A DNA stretch of 34,867 nt from a virus: positions 1 to 34,867 of IMG/VR virus record IMGVR_UViG_3300042542_002320; one strand, written 5' to 3'. Shown here piece by piece: positions 2,159-16,135 of the stretch. Below the pieces are notes generated by a model. The model was not told the DNA's origin. It searched no databases and saw only the letters and a program-made list of their open reading frames with translations. A program made the translations under genes and the position numbers. The number at the start of each line of letters is the position of its first letter. Position 1 is the stretch's first letter.

Positions 2159-2862
2159 GCGAAATAGTTAGAGGCGAAAATGTAACCGTTTTTAAATACG
2201 AGGACTCCATTAATGTTTGGGTGCCGTATGCCTGCGCTCGTTCATGCTCATTTTCGGTTGAAACAGATAGTATTGAAACATCAATAAAGGGCAGCGGTAA
2301 ATATAGAACATTCATACCACGTTCAAACGCATCTACTGGGAGTTTAGAAGGGGTAACACAGTTGGAAAAGGTAAACAACCTTAGCATTGCAGATTTAATT
2401 CAATTGCAAGTAGATCATGAAATATTGTTAATGCGGTGGGAAGATATTTCAGACAATGGCGATGTTTTCACAAAGGAACTGGAAATGTTTATTACCAACA
2501 CAACACAAACTGCATCCTTTGATAATGTAGCAACATTTTCTGTATCTTTACAGGGTACAGGGCCAATAACATTAGTTTACACACCTACACCAATAATTCA
2601 AGGTATCATGTACAGAAAAGAATTTACATTATCAGCAGGCGAAGATTCAATTTCATTATCAGAATTGGACGGTGTAAGCATTGACAATATCATTTCCATA
2701 ATTTTAGATAACAGCGATGCTAGTATAATTATTGGCAGCGGAACGCCTATCGGACAGGAAGTAAGATACAATCCATCTGGTGCAACTATTACATTTCCGT
2801 TTGCATCAGACATAGATTTAAACGGGTATGTAGCATATCAAATTATATATGAAGCAAGTTAA
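2155..2862 (+). CDS. Tail protein with tail-tube-like N-terminal domain
   Basis: 235 residues, starting with an ATG that overlaps the stop of the previous gene. Residues about 25-145 (C..SFSVETDSIETSIKG, GKYRTFIP, TGSLEGV, ATFSVSLQGTGPIT) have the layout of a TP901-1-type tail-tube domain: an SFS strand, a TGS/EG turn and a closing strand with GTGP. Residues about 150-235 form a second beta-rich domain. The standard tail-tube gene of this phage is at 30883, upstream of the tape measure, so this second tube-like protein sits among tail-tip genes and may form a ring at the distal end. The tail fibre gene overlaps its 3' end by 14 bases. The fold assignment rests on pattern recognition only. Confidence 0.6.
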   Translation: MSEIVRGENVTVFKYEDSINVWVPYACARSCSFSVETDSIETSIKGSGKYRTFIPRSNASTGSLEGVTQLEKVNNLSIADLIQLQVDHEILLMRWEDISDNGDVFTKELEMFITNTTQTASFDNVATFSVSLQGTGPITLVYTPTPIIQGIMYRKEFTLSAGEDSISLSELDGVSIDNIISIILDNSDASIIIGSGTPIGQEVRYNPSGATITFPFASDIDLNGYVAYQIIYEAS

Positions 2863-5524
2863 ATTAACATTATTATTTCTGCTTACTGCTTTTGTAGCAT
2901 TTGGGCAAACAGTTACGCCAGACCCTGGCCCTTATACGCCTATGAATCAAAAATACCAATATCGTTGGTTGAAAACAACTGGCGGTATTTGGAACACTGG
3001 CAAATTTGTGCAAGTGGATAGCGCACAATTTAGCGGCATAACTTACGTTCCAACGGCTGCCAATGCGGATAGTAGCATAAAGGCTGCTAACACTGCATGG
3101 GTAAGGAAATGGATAAAGGACAATATTACACCTTCTACACCAGGCACCCCTTCACCTACATGGCAATTTACTGGTAATTACACACCAGATGATCCAACTT
3201 CTGGCAGGCTTGGTTTTAAAGATTCAACAGACCTATCAATTATTACAAACGATATTATTCGCATGGTAATTCCTGACAATGGAATCAAAAGAAATACGGC
3301 AGCGGTTAATAAGGTTTTGGTAATAGATACCATTACTAAATTAATTTACTATACAGATGCAAGCGGCGGCGGCGGTGGTGATACTACTGGCATTGGCAAT
3401 CTTTACATCCGTAACACAACTACACAAGAAAACAAACGCTTTAACGTAAAGGGCGGTCGATTAGACAGCTTATATGCCTCAACAAGTGCTGGCGGTAGGG
3501 TATTGAGCAATAGCGGTACTGTGGCGGCTGAATGGGGTGCAGGCGGTGGTAGTAACTTTGACTTTCACGGGTTCGCTGGCTACAATCTTAATCGTGCATC
3601 AAGTTATACGGCACGTTCATTTACGGATAAGAATTATGTAGATAGTAGTTTGGCGTTGAAAACCACTGTTACCTCTTACGGCAAAAACGCTGGAGGTGAT
3701 AGCACAATACTTTTACTTTCAAATGGTACAAGATATGCTGCGAAGGATAGTGTAGGTGGTGGTGGTGGTTCACAAACATTGCAGCAAGTCTTAACAACAG
3801 GTTCAACACTTACACAAGCAAATAATACCAACAATGGCGGCTTTGCTCAAACTAGTTCAAACGGCAAGAATATTTTTGATTCGATAGCCATAAAATCAGC
3901 CGCAAAAGTCGTTGATTCAATTTGGTTTGATGGAACGAGTATAACCGCAGGAGTTGGCGTTAGTTCTAGTTCTTACAGGTTTACAACTTTACTTTCTAAT
4001 AAATTAAATTGTATTGAAAAAAATATCGGCGAAAGCGCCGCACGGATGTATGTTGAAGGAATAGCTGCTAACCACATGGGAGCAATACCGATTTATTCTG
4101 CTTCAAAATATAAATGGATGATTTTGGAGTGGGGAACAAATGATATGCAATTAGGAGTTGTGGATACAGCTACCTACGCAGCGGCTTATTTGCGCTATTT
4201 AGACACAGCCATTGCACGAGGATGGTCGGTATCTAATATAGTTGTTCTATCCCCTTCATGGGTAGATAGTTCGGTAACAGGGGCAGCACTGACGCCACGA
4301 ATGAACGCCTTTAATCTTTGCACTAAAAATATAGCATTGAGAAGGGGCACAAAATATATAGACGTTTATTCTTTGCAATTACAAAGGGGTAAACAAATAT
4401 TGTTATCAGATGGAATACATCCTTCAAATAGTGGTTCAAGTTTATCTTATGTAACGCCGATAGTTGAACTGCTAACCGATAGTGTCGAAAACGAAGGACA
4501 GGCTATTGCAATTAACGGTAATATTGAATTTCAAAATTTGAAATTGAGGGTAAAAAATATTGCAAACGATAAAACAGTACCTATTGGATTGGACAGTTCC
4601 GGAAATGTAGTGAGATACGATAATGCGGGATTGATTGCAAATGGTGAAGCAATGATACAGCCGCAGGGAGCAAGTATTAATATTTCAGGTCGGGCATTAA
4701 TTGGTAACGTTACTTCCCCAAGTTCCGTAGAAAAATTACAGGTTAATGGAACTTTAAAGGCATCATATGGGCGTTTTACGGCTAGCGGACCTTCGGGGCT
4801 TTTAGGGGCTTCGACTGAAATTGGGTTTACTTCAAATGAAGGTTATTTATATGCATACGACAGAACGGCTAGCACCACAAAGGCATTGAATATTAATTTT
4901 TTAGGAGGTATTGTAAAGGTAGGCGGCGGCGGCGGCTCCGATGCGGCATTGAGCGCACCAACGATACAAGCGGCAACGGGTAAATTTTCGGGCGCATTAA
5001 CTGCTATAACAGGCGCAGGCGTAGAGATAGCGACATTTGCAGGCGGTGGGTATATAGGCGCATACAATAGACCTTCAACAGCAATGGACTTGTATATGCA
5101 GGGATTGGGCGGCAAAATTTTGTTTGGCTCCCTTTCAATAGTTGGTACAAACACCTTTCAATTTGCTGGAACGGGGCACTTTACAAGTTCGTTAAATATT
5201 GGTGCAACAGCGGCACCAACAGCAACTTTGCAAACTACATCATTTGCAACGGCATACACAGCAAGCGGCGTAAATATTACAGCCACGATTGCGCACAATG
5301 TAATTGATTTAACGGCAACAGGGCTAACAGCTACATTGCCCACAGCGGTAGGAATTACAGGGCGTGAATACACCATTAAATTAACTGCAATAGGGACTGG
5401 AACGGTTGCAACTACATCAAGCCAAACAATAGATGGTTCAACAACATATTCTTTGCTAGCTCAATATAAATACGTAACCGTTAAAAGTACAGGTGCCAAC
5501 TGGATTATAATTGCAAACAATTAG
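2849..5524 (+). CDS. Tail fibre/spike protein with SGNH (GDSL-type) esterase domain and N-terminal signal peptide
   Basis: 891 residues. It opens with a signal-peptide-like segment (MKQVKLTLLFLLTAFVAFGQ), odd for a virion protein. Glycine-rich linkers (runs of 4-5 Gly) at about residues 171-175, 231-234, 301-305 and 691-695 separate modules. An SGNH hydrolase domain spans about residues 355-545: DGTS with candidate nucleophile Ser364, WGTND with Asn431, and DGIH with the Asp521/His524 pair. Such domains remove acyl groups from surface glycans, so this is the likely receptor-processing protein. The last 100 residues are Thr/Ala-rich beta-structure ending GANWIIIANN, as in many fibres. It follows the tail-tip genes, overlapping the previous gene by 14 bases. 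Confidence 0.85.
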   Translation: MKQVKLTLLFLLTAFVAFGQTVTPDPGPYTPMNQKYQYRWLKTTGGIWNTGKFVQVDSAQFSGITYVPTAANADSSIKAANTAWVRKWIKDNITPSTPGTPSPTWQFTGNYTPDDPTSGRLGFKDSTDLSIITNDIIRMVIPDNGIKRNTAAVNKVLVIDTITKLIYYTDASGGGGGDTTGIGNLYIRNTTTQENKRFNVKGGRLDSLYASTSAGGRVLSNSGTVAAEWGAGGGSNFDFHGFAGYNLNRASSYTARSFTDKNYVDSSLALKTTVTSYGKNAGGDSTILLLSNGTRYAAKDSVGGGGGSQTLQQVLTTGSTLTQANNTNNGGFAQTSSNGKNIFDSIAIKSAAKVVDSIWFDGTSITAGVGVSSSSYRFTTLLSNKLNCIEKNIGESAARMYVEGIAANHMGAIPIYSASKYKWMILEWGTNDMQLGVVDTATYAAAYLRYLDTAIARGWSVSNIVVLSPSWVDSSVTGAALTPRMNAFNLCTKNIALRRGTKYIDVYSLQLQRGKQILLSDGIHPSNSGSSLSYVTPIVELLTDSVENEGQAIAINGNIEFQNLKLRVKNIANDKTVPIGLDSSGNVVRYDNAGLIANGEAMIQPQGASINISGRALIGNVTSPSSVEKLQVNGTLKASYGRFTASGPSGLLGASTEIGFTSNEGYLYAYDRTASTTKALNINFLGGIVKVGGGGGSDAALSAPTIQAATGKFSGALTAITGAGVEIATFAGGGYIGAYNRPSTAMDLYMQGLGGKILFGSLSIVGTNTFQFAGTGHFTSSLNIGATAAPTATLQTTSFATAYTASGVNITATIAHNVIDLTATGLTATLPTAVGITGREYTIKLTAIGTGTVATTSSQTIDGSTTYSLLAQYKYVTVKSTGANWIIIANN

Positions 5525-14189: not shown

Positions 14190-14483
14190 ATGGGTTACAT
14201 TTCAGTAGAAGTTGATATTGATATTGATTTATATGAAATTGATACAGATGATTTAGTAGAAGAAATTTGTCGCAGATTAAAAAGTTTTGGAAGTAAAAAA
14301 TCTTTATCAGACAAGGAAAAAAAAGACATTAAAGAATCTTTATCAGATTTAGAAGATTCTTTAAATATATCTCCAGTAGAAAGTATTGAGATAAAAACTT
14401 TAGATGATAAAATGAAAGTAGAGCATTTTTCATCAGTCTTTTATAAGTACACTTCCTCCCAAATTGAAAATTTACTGCCATGA
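14190..14483 (+). CDS. Acidic hypothetical early protein
   Basis: 97 residues, strongly acidic at the front (VEVDIDIDLYEIDTDDLVEE) with a Lys/Ser-rich helical middle. No family recognised; the front half looks like a small alpha/beta domain. ATGA overlap with the next gene. Confidence 0.65.
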   Translation: MGYISVEVDIDIDLYEIDTDDLVEEICRRLKSFGSKKSLSDKEKKDIKESLSDLEDSLNISPVESIEIKTLDDKMKVEHFSSVFYKYTSSQIENLLP

Positions 14484-14668
14484 AAACAAAACAAACAGGT
14501 ATCTACCAACGGCGACCAAAGGATGATGTAATTAAAAATCATGCGCAAATAATTAAACTTAAACAACAAGGGCATAGCCTTATAAGTATTGCCAAAACAT
14601 TGGGCACCACTTATGGCAGCGTTTTGTATGTTGTTTATCGTAAAGAAAATAACGGGTTATGGCAATGA
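14480..14668 (+). CDS. Small helix-turn-helix protein
   Basis: 62 residues. After a basic start (MKTKQTGIYQRRPKDD) residues about 22-50 (AQIIKLKQQGHSLISIAKTL, then GTTYGSVLYVVYR) form a helix-turn-helix resembling those of resolvases and sigma region 4. It is likely a DNA-binding regulator or recruits the methyltransferase whose gene starts on its stop codon. Confidence 0.65.
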   Translation: MKTKQTGIYQRRPKDDVIKNHAQIIKLKQQGHSLISIAKTLGTTYGSVLYVVYRKENNGLWQ

Positions 14669-15741
14669 TGAAACACATCGGACTATTTGAAGGCATTGGC
14701 GGTTTCTCACTTGCAGCACGTTGGATGGGATGGGAAACCATTGCTTGGTGCGAGTGGAACGAATTTGGACAAAAAGTATTAAAACATCATTTCCCAAAAG
14801 CACAACCACATGGCGACATTACAAAAACAGACTTCACTATTTACAGAGGACAATGCGACATCGTTACTGGAGGATTCCCCTGCCAACCATACAGCCTTGC
14901 AGGCAAGCGAAAAGGCAAAGCAGATGACAGACATCTCTGGCCAGAAATGCTTAGAGCAATTAGAGAAATTCAGCCACGTTGGGTTGTGGGCGAAAACGTT
15001 TTCGGCCTTGTTAATTGGGATGGAGGGTTGGTATTCAACGAAGTGCAAGCTGAATTGGAAGCTGCGGGGTACGAAGTATTCCCGTATGTATTGCCAGCTT
15101 GCGCCGTCAACGCTCCCCACAGACGGGATAGGATTTGGTTTGTTGCCTACAGCAACAGCGCAAGACTTCAAAAGGCGCGGAGCGAACAGCAAGCAACAAG
15201 GATTGAGCAATACGGAGAACTGGACTGGACTACTCCCAACCCCGACAACGCAAGAAACGCCACACATGGATGCAGAACTGACAGAAACGGGGAGAAGGAA
15301 AGCAGCCAACGGGAACAGCCACAGTTTAAATCTAATCGACTATGCAATACGAGGTTTGCTTCCAACAGTTCGAGCAAGAGCAGCCGGGGGGAATTGCAGC
15401 AACGACAGGGGGAAGGGGAATTTAGAGGATGTGATAGCAAAGGGGTTATTACCGACACCAACAGCGGACGACAACCCAGCAAAGAACACGGGCAAACGGA
15501 ATCAGGACGGATTGCAGAAACGGGCATACCAAGCGACTGGCAAAACTTCCCAACTCAATCCCCCATTTGTTCTGGAGATGATGGGATTTCCGCCCGATTG
15601 GACTCTATCACCTTTCCTAAATGGAGAAACGAATCCATAAAAGCAGCAGGCAACGCCATCGTTCCACAAGTAGCATTTCAAATATTTAAAGCAATAGAAC
15701 AGTATGACATGGACACAAAGATACCGCCAATCGCACAATGA
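14665..15741 (+). CDS. C5 cytosine DNA methyltransferase (Dcm type)
   Basis: 358 residues from the ATG at 14665, which overlaps the upstream stop (ATGA); an ATG two codons upstream is also possible. Motif I GLFEGIGGF, motif IV GGFPCQPYSLAG with the catalytic Cys, motif VI GENVFG, motif VIII RRDRIW, and motif X KAAGNAIVPQVA are all present, so it should be active. It methylates cytosine C5 in a specific sequence, probably to protect phage DNA from host restriction. The segment between motif VIII and the C-terminal block (the target-recognition region, about 15170-15540) is poorly ordered, rich in Ser/Arg/Gln/Asn. The region from codon 49 to the end is overlapped by a 276-codon frame in +1. Confidence 0.9.
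   Translation: MMKHIGLFEGIGGFSLAARWMGWETIAWCEWNEFGQKVLKHHFPKAQPHGDITKTDFTIYRGQCDIVTGGFPCQPYSLAGKRKGKADDRHLWPEMLRAIREIQPRWVVGENVFGLVNWDGGLVFNEVQAELEAAGYEVFPYVLPACAVNAPHRRDRIWFVAYSNSARLQKARSEQQATRIEQYGELDWTTPNPDNARNATHGCRTDRNGEKESSQREQPQFKSNRLCNTRFASNSSSKSSRGELQQRQGEGEFRGCDSKGVITDTNSGRQPSKEHGQTESGRIAETGIPSDWQNFPTQSPICSGDDGISARLDSITFPKWRNESIKAAGNAIVPQVAFQIFKAIEQYDMDTKIPPIAQ
14810..15640 (+). CDS. Overprinted gene inside the methyltransferase, GLLPT-repeat protein
   Basis: 276 residues in the +1 frame, entirely inside the methyltransferase gene, ATG start (MATLQKQTSLFTEDNATSLL). Residues about 47-105 are ordered-looking: CLEQLEKF, HVGLWAKTFSALLIGMEGWY, CKLNWKLRGTKY, CQLAPSTLP. GLLPT then repeats at residues 110, 140, 182 and 212, followed each time by TATAQD, PTTQE or PTADD types. 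The C-terminus SQLNPPFVLEMMGFPPDWT (247-265) echoes the LxPxxxxxxMGFPxxW segment of cytosine methyltransferases. An 831-base open frame with repeated motifs in AT-rich DNA argues for real coding. I associate similar sequences with phage methyltransferase loci. Function unknown. Confidence 0.65.
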   Translation: MATLQKQTSLFTEDNATSLLEDSPANHTALQASEKAKQMTDISGQKCLEQLEKFSHVGLWAKTFSALLIGMEGWYSTKCKLNWKLRGTKYSRMYCQLAPSTLPTDGIGFGLLPTATAQDFKRRGANSKQQGLSNTENWTGLLPTPTTQETPHMDAELTETGRRKAANGNSHSLNLIDYAIRGLLPTVRARAAGGNCSNDRGKGNLEDVIAKGLLPTPTADDNPAKNTGKRNQDGLQKRAYQATGKTSQLNPPFVLEMMGFPPDWTLSPFLNGETNP

Positions 15742-16135
15742 GTGGTGCAAACGCCAAAGCCCAGCATTCTTTGACGCTTCAGGTGGCAACAGTATGAAGG
15801 TTACTTACCCATGCGTTACAAAGTCAAACGGACTTACAACTGCAATATGTAAGTACTTAGAATGGGAGGGCCATAGGGCAACCCGTATCAATACCGCTGG
15901 CAGAATAGTTGAAGGTCGTTACATTACATCAACAACCCGTAAAGGAACCGCTGACATATCAGCAACTATTAAAGGACGTGCTGTAATGTTGGAAGTTAAA
16001 GTCGGTAAAGACAAACCTTCTGTTTACCAATTAGCAGAACAGCAACGGGAAAGGGCCGCTGGTGGTATCTATGAGTTTATACATACAATACAGGAGTTCT
16101 TTGATTTTTACGACGAACTATTAAGTAAAATTTAA
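15704..16135 (+). CDS. VRR-NUC domain nuclease
   Basis: 143 residues, overlapping the methyltransferase end by 38 bases. After a variable N-terminus, residues about 44-143 form a PD-(D/E)xK fold of the VRR-NUC type: GTADISATIKG supplies the Asp, VMLEVKVGKD the E-x-K pair, then VYQLAEQQRERAAGG. It probably cuts branched or structured DNA in recombination or replication, and could be the nuclease partner of the RecT-like protein at 11685. Confidence 0.8.
   Translation: MTWTQRYRQSHNEWCKRQSPAFFDASGGNSMKVTYPCVTKSNGLTTAICKYLEWEGHRATRINTAGRIVEGRYITSTTRKGTADISATIKGRAVMLEVKVGKDKPSVYQLAEQQRERAAGGIYEFIHTIQEFFDFYDELLSKI

Follow-up and report, generated by a model that had tools for sequence, protein, structure and literature searches.

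Organization of the locus

The window, i.e. the whole stretch of viral DNA that was analysed (34,867 nucleotides), comes from a tailed phage according to PHROG matches to terminase, portal, major head protein, major tail protein, tape measure, primase/helicase and replication initiator. Adjoining the major tail protein gene there is an 891-codon gene (2849-5524) without a PHROG match. A C5 methyltransferase gene (14659-15741) is located upstream of the primase and is flanked by a small HTH gene (14480-14668) and an endonuclease-like gene (15704-16135). As described in the initial annotation, an ATG-started frame of 276 codons is open in +1 within the methyltransferase gene at 14810-15640; its start is opposite methyltransferase codon 51, not codon 49 as had been stated. 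The main-frame protein is called alpha and the product of the nested frame beta. The features of the locus are:

14659..15741, + strand: alpha, C5-cytosine DNA methyltransferase of 360 aa with motifs I-VIII and X and without motif IX (PF00145, phrog_363, AF2/Foldseek)
14686..14706, + strand: alpha motif I, FEGIGGF (sequence)
14810..15640, + strand: beta, nested +1 gene of 276 aa, predicted recognition and motif IX subunit (phrog_1008, conservation, constraint); stop codon TAA at 15638-15640
14810..14812, + strand: beta start codon ATG (homologous frames, main-preserving shuffles)
14869..14889, + strand: alpha motif IV, GGFPCQP, including the catalytic Cys; codons TTC CCC TGC CAA (sequence)
14975..15136, + strand: beta N-terminal conserved block, HVGLWAKTF...EGWYSTKCKLNWKLRGTKY...QLAPSTLP, overlapping alpha motifs VI-VIII (invariant columns)
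14989..15000, + strand: alpha motif VI, GENV (sequence)
15118..15147, + strand: alpha motif VIII, HRRDRIWFVA (sequence)
15137..15460, + strand: beta GLLPT(P) repeats, four copies, predicted target-recognition region (sequence)
15157..15528, + strand: alpha variable region (residues 167-290), a disordered unconstrained linker in the main frame (pLDDT, dN/dS)
15548..15604, + strand: beta motif IX, SQLNPPFVLEMMGFPPDWT (alignment to the single-chain relative L304, strongest beta constraint)
15649..15675, + strand: alpha motif X, GNAIVPQVA, 3' of the beta stop (sequence)

In beta, GLLPT is found at residues 110, 140, 182 and 212, HVGLWAKTFSALLIGMEGWY at residue 56 and SQLNPPFVLEMMGFPPDWT at residue 247, all as initially reported, and the C-terminal end of the protein is LNPPFVLEMMGFPPDWT.

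The main-frame protein

Alpha is matched by PF00145 (E=1.5e-47) and by phrog_363 (E=2.2e-71) and carries motifs I, IV (PCQ), VI (ENV), VIII and X, which makes it a C5 methyltransferase. A single-chain enzyme would also contain motif IX and an ordered recognition domain, both of which are missing from alpha. The AF2 model has a confident catalytic core that matches M.HhaI (Foldseek E ~1e-12). Over most of residues 188-331 the confidence is low, with pLDDT mostly <50 from residue 188. These pLDDT values agree with the earlier impression that the main frame is poorly ordered over the target-recognition part; main-frame dN/dS is ~1 in this region.

The nested frame is a conserved gene under selection

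A long frame inside another gene can be a chance ORF whose conservation is a mere shadow of the methyltransferase frame. For the present locus this explanation is extremely improbable. When synonymous codons of the methyltransferase were permuted with the main protein unchanged (n=20,000), the +1 frame had 4.3 stops on average and was open in 0.07% of permutations. In the reverse test, with beta fixed, the main frame had a mean of 9.2 stops and was open in 0/5,000 permutations. Openness of neither frame thus follows from fixing the other, and the two are specified independently of one another. When scored with a profile built from this frame at other loci, beta reaches 379 bits, as compared to at most 189 bits in 301 controls, nearly all of them main-preserving permutations. 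These controls still average 143 bits, as a shadow would have it, which means that part of the beta similarity does come from the main frame, but most of it does not.

The start of beta is conserved as well. ATG occurs at or before profile position 12 in 221 of the 222 beta-homologous frames, and 90/108 have an ATG near the beta start where main-preserving shuffles predict 53. A Shine-Dalgarno-like sequence upstream of the start is rare (7/209). Scarcity of Shine-Dalgarno sequences is usual for Bacteroidota.

Regarding selection, the geometry of the overlap separates the two frames: the first base of a beta codon is the second base of a main codon, the main wobble base is the second base of a beta codon, and the beta wobble base is the first base of a main codon. 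Among 1,116 pairs, the third main position differs at 0.41 in the N-terminal part and 0.46 in the tail outside the overlap, so that the alpha tail with motif X has ordinary wobble; in the three overlap segments the values are 0.29, 0.385 and 0.15. In the last two of these segments the first main position, which is the beta wobble, is the most variable one (0.53 and 0.25), which is the pattern predicted for a constrained beta frame. Substitution rates from 33 independent pairs agree with this. The rate of changes that are synonymous in the main frame and nonsynonymous in beta is 0.72 and 0.66 outside the overlap and 0.32, 0.34 and 0.14 inside; the main-frame synonymous rate is 2-5-fold lower inside the overlap.

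Across the overlap segments (motifs IV-VIII, variable stretch, motif IX), main dN/dS is 0.13, 0.95-1.24 and 0.57-0.83, and beta dN/dS is 0.53-0.60, 0.51-0.56 and 0.29-0.40, the constraint on beta being strongest at motif IX. As a calibration, a phantom +1 frame in non-overlapping stretches gives dN/dS of 0.67 and 0.90, and the beta value over alpha motifs IV-VIII is not clearly under these. The beta ratio is therefore not decisive alone over this segment, where the case for beta lies in the fall of the main-synonymous rate and in the conserved residues. Over the target-recognition part the second frame holds most of the constraint, with beta dN/dS of ~0.5 against ~1 for the main frame, in agreement with the initial proposal that it may hold much of it.

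Wobble suppression confined to the overlap, a beta frame more constrained than the main frame over the variable stretch and the location of motif IX in the beta frame all stand against a chance ORF, and the codon-position pattern refutes it. The codon-position comparison that had been suggested as a check on the second gene finds main synonymous sites suppressed solely within the overlap, so the proposal withstands it. The +1 frame is a real conserved gene, and conservation together with codon-position constraint supports the view that one stretch of DNA specifies two conserved proteins.

Spread of the overlapping arrangement

Searching phage and viral sequences with the 276-codon protein, as had also been suggested, returned an independent family, phrog_1008, along with 70 phage records and 254 viral contigs. 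Beta matches phrog_1008 with E=1e-26 over residues 17-265, and the same family is matched by 98/98 aligned beta homologues. Both frames are present, always in +1, in 170/170 fetched viral and phage loci, including 80 that were fetched via the main protein. The same holds for 80/80 bacterial loci, mostly from Bacteroidota, and for 27 of the 29 Pseudomonadota loci found with phrog_1008. It is important to note that homologues were gathered by short conserved peptides, which biases these counts to conserved loci, and that the fetched loci are partly redundant. The overlap is conserved across phages and prophages of Bacteroidota, Bacillota and Pseudomonadota.

Beta without alpha was seen in 0 cases in the 170 viral and phage, 80 bacterial and Pseudomonadota loci examined, and the bacterial genomes and phages searched contain no free-standing beta except for the split type of actinophages described below. 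The initial annotation had made the second gene depend on homologues outside the shared overlap. The phrog_1008 family speaks for the gene, and the expectation of free-standing homologues is borne out by the actinophage type only; the outcome does not refute the proposal. Since beta homologues are not free-standing, two proteins forming one enzyme fit better than an unrelated second gene. Beta is not covered by any family in Pfam, NCBIfam or PADLOC.

Domain content of beta and its fused and split relatives

The N-terminal block of beta has invariant columns at L68, G70, W74, S76, C79, W83, R92 and L97. It is followed by the GLLPT(P) repeats, of which most beta homologues have 2-4, usually 30-45 aa apart. 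Over the fetched loci the number of LPT(P) repeats varies from 0 to 5 per beta protein (residues 109-240 in window numbering), which suggests modular exchange of recognition units.

The C-terminal end had been noted to resemble an LxP..MGFP..W segment of methyltransferases. This is correct, and by sequence comparison the segment is motif IX, on three lines of evidence: an alignment to a single-chain relative, the split proteins of actinophages and the published description of M.EcoHK31I. In the single-chain relative (L304, 1880-2803) the methyltransferase frame itself encodes motif IX (LMPEFAEWLMGFPLGWT) as well as motif X, and LPTP repeats are lacking. The beta profile aligns to residues 230-251 of this methyltransferase, between motifs VIII and X, with E=7.5e-5 (best shuffled control 0.2). 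It is possible that the single-chain relative is an ancestral or re-fused form. Alpha of Streptomyces phage Heather and of Mycobacterium phage Obama12 ends directly behind motif VIII; LPTP repeats, the same motif IX and motif X follow, in this order, in the +1 protein. The actinophage loci of this type are L288 (1174-2269) and L290 (1186-2239). The actinophage arrangement represents either two subunits or a programmed frameshift.

In ordinary C5 enzymes the recognition region lies between motifs VIII and IX, and motif IX joins it to the catalytic domain. Given this order, and given that the actinophage +1 protein holds everything after motif VIII, we infer that the beta repeats are the recognition region. 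Thus it is probably beta, not alpha, that carries the target-recognition region, as predicted from sequence. Such a location would explain both the disorder of alpha and its lack of constraint opposite the repeats.

The history of the locus may have started from a single-chain enzyme in which a frame change after motif VIII separated the two parts. Beta would then have acquired an upstream start and, over motifs IV-VIII, the N-terminal block. The alpha frame of the window type would have stayed open across the recognition region, so regaining motif X.

A probable two-polypeptide methyltransferase and its alternatives

It is very likely that the locus encodes a two-polypeptide C5-cytosine DNA methyltransferase, in which the nested gene provides the beta subunit with the recognition region and motif IX. 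Alpha would be responsible for AdoMet binding and catalysis (motifs I-VIII) and would add motif X. Beta would be translated from the mRNA of alpha, starting at its internal ATG and reading in +1, and would supply the conserved N-terminal block, the LPTP-repeat modules as a putative target-recognition region and motif IX. The two proteins presumably bind each other and assemble into one active enzyme, where beta would read the target. Opposite the beta repeats alpha would act as a disordered linker that need only stay open and deliver motif X. The enzyme would probably serve for modification of phage DNA against host restriction, or for regulation. A counterpoint to assembly is the AF2 model of beta alone, which is poor (pLDDT 57.6, pTM 0.24) and has no structural match; a search of the PDB gave no sequence match to beta either. 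Foldseek matches of this model (cyanase etc., E >0.5) are meaningless given its quality.

The nested protein had been proposed as a partner or an antagonist of the methyltransferase. Our results favour the partner, as a beta subunit of a split enzyme, and speak against the antagonist, since alpha lacks motif IX and beta has it. An inhibitor or other separate regulator of the methyltransferase, or a protein with an unrelated phage function, is unlikely: motif IX and an ordered recognition domain are missing from alpha and this is precisely what beta has, the fused and split relatives hold the same segments within one enzyme, and beta was never seen without alpha in the loci examined. The N-terminal block of beta, which has no counterpart in ordinary enzymes, would fit a separate protein. 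A programmed frameshift that fuses the catalytic part of alpha to the beta frame, with one trans-frame protein as the enzyme, would suit actinophage loci L288 and L290, where alpha ends just past motif VIII and the +1 repeats begin at that place. For the window type we find a frameshift quite improbable, because the beta frame is conserved for ~110 residues upstream of any useful shift point and has a conserved ATG. Moreover, beta ends before motif X and alpha reads into it, so that two opposite shifts would be required.

Comparison with known systems

Lee, Kam and Shaw reportedly found in 1995 that beta of M.EcoHK31I is encoded in another frame inside alpha and that both are needed; the window beta is likewise nested in alpha in another frame. 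M.EcoHK31I is an alpha/beta C5 methyltransferase with the target YGGCCR. To our knowledge, the nested-frame arrangement of a methyltransferase has so far been demonstrated in this one enzyme only. The published description of M.EcoHK31I, a naturally split enzyme, assigns motifs I-VIII and X to the large subunit and motif IX to the small one (PMC3404938). Compared with this description, the window has the same anatomy: alpha with I-VIII and X, and IX in the smaller polypeptide. The difference concerns the predicted recognition domain, which in M.EcoHK31I has been placed in the large subunit, not the small one (PMC3404938), whereas in the window constraint, disorder and the split and fused relatives put it in beta. 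The best reading of the motif anatomy is that the window locus is of the M.EcoHK31I kind, where both polypeptides would be needed for methylation, and that this kind is far more widespread than its one characterised example suggests.

M.AquI also consists of two polypeptides forming one C5 enzyme, but it is split within the variable region, with motifs IX and X both in the small subunit (PMC3404938). Its genes are in tandem, unlike the nested beta of the window, which ends before motif X. M.AquI is resembled more by the actinophage relatives Obama12 and Heather than by the window.

Existing annotation covers parts of the arrangement. The PHROGs v4 entry phrog_1008 is annotated 'DNA methyltransferase' by name only and mentions neither an overlapping frame nor a subunit. 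In Paenibacillus larvae phages (e.g. Tadhana gp54/gp55), whose proteins have ~34% identity to the window beta, and in E. coli phage K1ind1 (ORF29/ORF28), both frames are annotated at the same place without comment; the names given are 'DNA-cytosine methyltransferase' for both genes or 'Mte8-like'. The overlap receives no discussion in the paper on the P. larvae phages. The literature searched contained nothing direct on an overlapping phage methyltransferase gene, and the breadth of the spread of nested beta seems to be unrecorded there, as does the probable location of the recognition region in beta and not in alpha. Annotators of bacterial and phage genomes seldom accept long overlaps of genes on one strand. 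The present overlap of ~830 bases has clear selection on both frames, and its second frame provides motif IX, which alpha lacks, and probably the recognition region too. If the second frame is the recognition subunit, as is probable, many phage 'orphan' methyltransferases have probably been annotated without their specificity subunit, and alpha cloned alone would then yield an inactive enzyme.

A stop codon inside the catalytic motif of related loci

The window alpha reads TTC CCC TGC CAA at motif IV, without an inserted stop. In four related loci (L015, L023, L026 and L072) alpha has the form GGFP-TAA-CTN-CQP and both frames are otherwise intact. A scan for this form returned 25 viral contigs; when TRR followed by NNN was allowed, 55 stretches were found. 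In a control scan that left six bases free between TTCCCN and TGCCARCC, pooled with the earlier matches, the first inserted codon is a stop in 51/51 methyltransferase loci among the matches listed (at least 51; 33 TAA, 10 TGA, 8 TAG), as compared to mixed codons in the 52 non-methyltransferase matches of the control scan among those listed. Loci with the insertion are L307-L337, L340-L342, L346-L350 and L352-L363, in addition to the four above.

Among the matches listed, which form 27 clusters, the second inserted codon is always YYN (CCN, CTN or TCN), and the Pro codon before the stop is CCG, CCT or CCA and never CCC. In uninserted genes CCC is the commonest Pro codon (90/266), and its absence from the inserted ones has P ~1e-5. 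None of the landing codons among the matches listed ends in C. Alpha 3' of the inserted stop is still constrained (dN/dS 0.19). Many of these loci have a beta ATG ~30 bases 5' of the stop, preceded by GGAG.

We lean towards the view that the nested alpha/beta family uses recoding in many of its members, full-length alpha being made by in-frame stop hopping. Peptidyl-tRNA-Pro(UGG) would leave CCN, skip the stop and re-pair with CCN, CUN or UCN (G.U allowed); TGC would be decoded next, restoring GGFPCQ exactly. A stop shortly after the beta start would also set the alpha:beta ratio. The alternative is readthrough of the inserted stop, with two extra residues in alpha.

Several other explanations were rejected. 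Code reassignment does not agree with the occurrence of all three stops and with TAA ending ordinary genes on the same contigs. Restart in the +2 frame would meet just short open frames. The insertion is not an effect of the beta frame alone, since the codon is never TGG among the matches listed, nor a sequencing error, since 51/51 insertions among these matches are stops. A conserved 3' RNA stem gave no folding signal.

According to a 2016 review, in-frame stop hopping is known from synthetic constructs and 'no occurences are known' in nature (PMC5009743). No natural case was found in the later literature searched; if true, stop hopping in this family would be the first natural one found there. 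No true case of the insertion was present in samples of 395 Bacteroidota genomes and 398 genomes from the phylum to which a Bacillota-titled MAG (L192) belongs, and the two pattern matches in these samples are not methyltransferases.

Other interruptions of the alpha frame

Stops were also seen elsewhere in alpha. Three loci (L165, L168 and L169) have TAG at about codon 198 of the main-frame match, in the linker after motif VIII, and two (L053 and L127) have TGA in the alpha variable region. In all five, beta is intact and motif X is still encoded downstream; alpha would lose it unless the stop is bypassed or the fragments come together. One locus (L108, 2877-3875) has two in-frame stops in a row, TGA TAG, near main codons 22-23 and directly behind alpha motif I, with the remainder intact; this may be a pseudogene, an error or another case of recoding. 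In marine autographivirus C739 (L010, ~1395-1440), the alpha frame changes in an A-rich run and motif I continues in the beta frame. This is probably a one-base error or deletion, and alpha of C739 is annotated as two genes.
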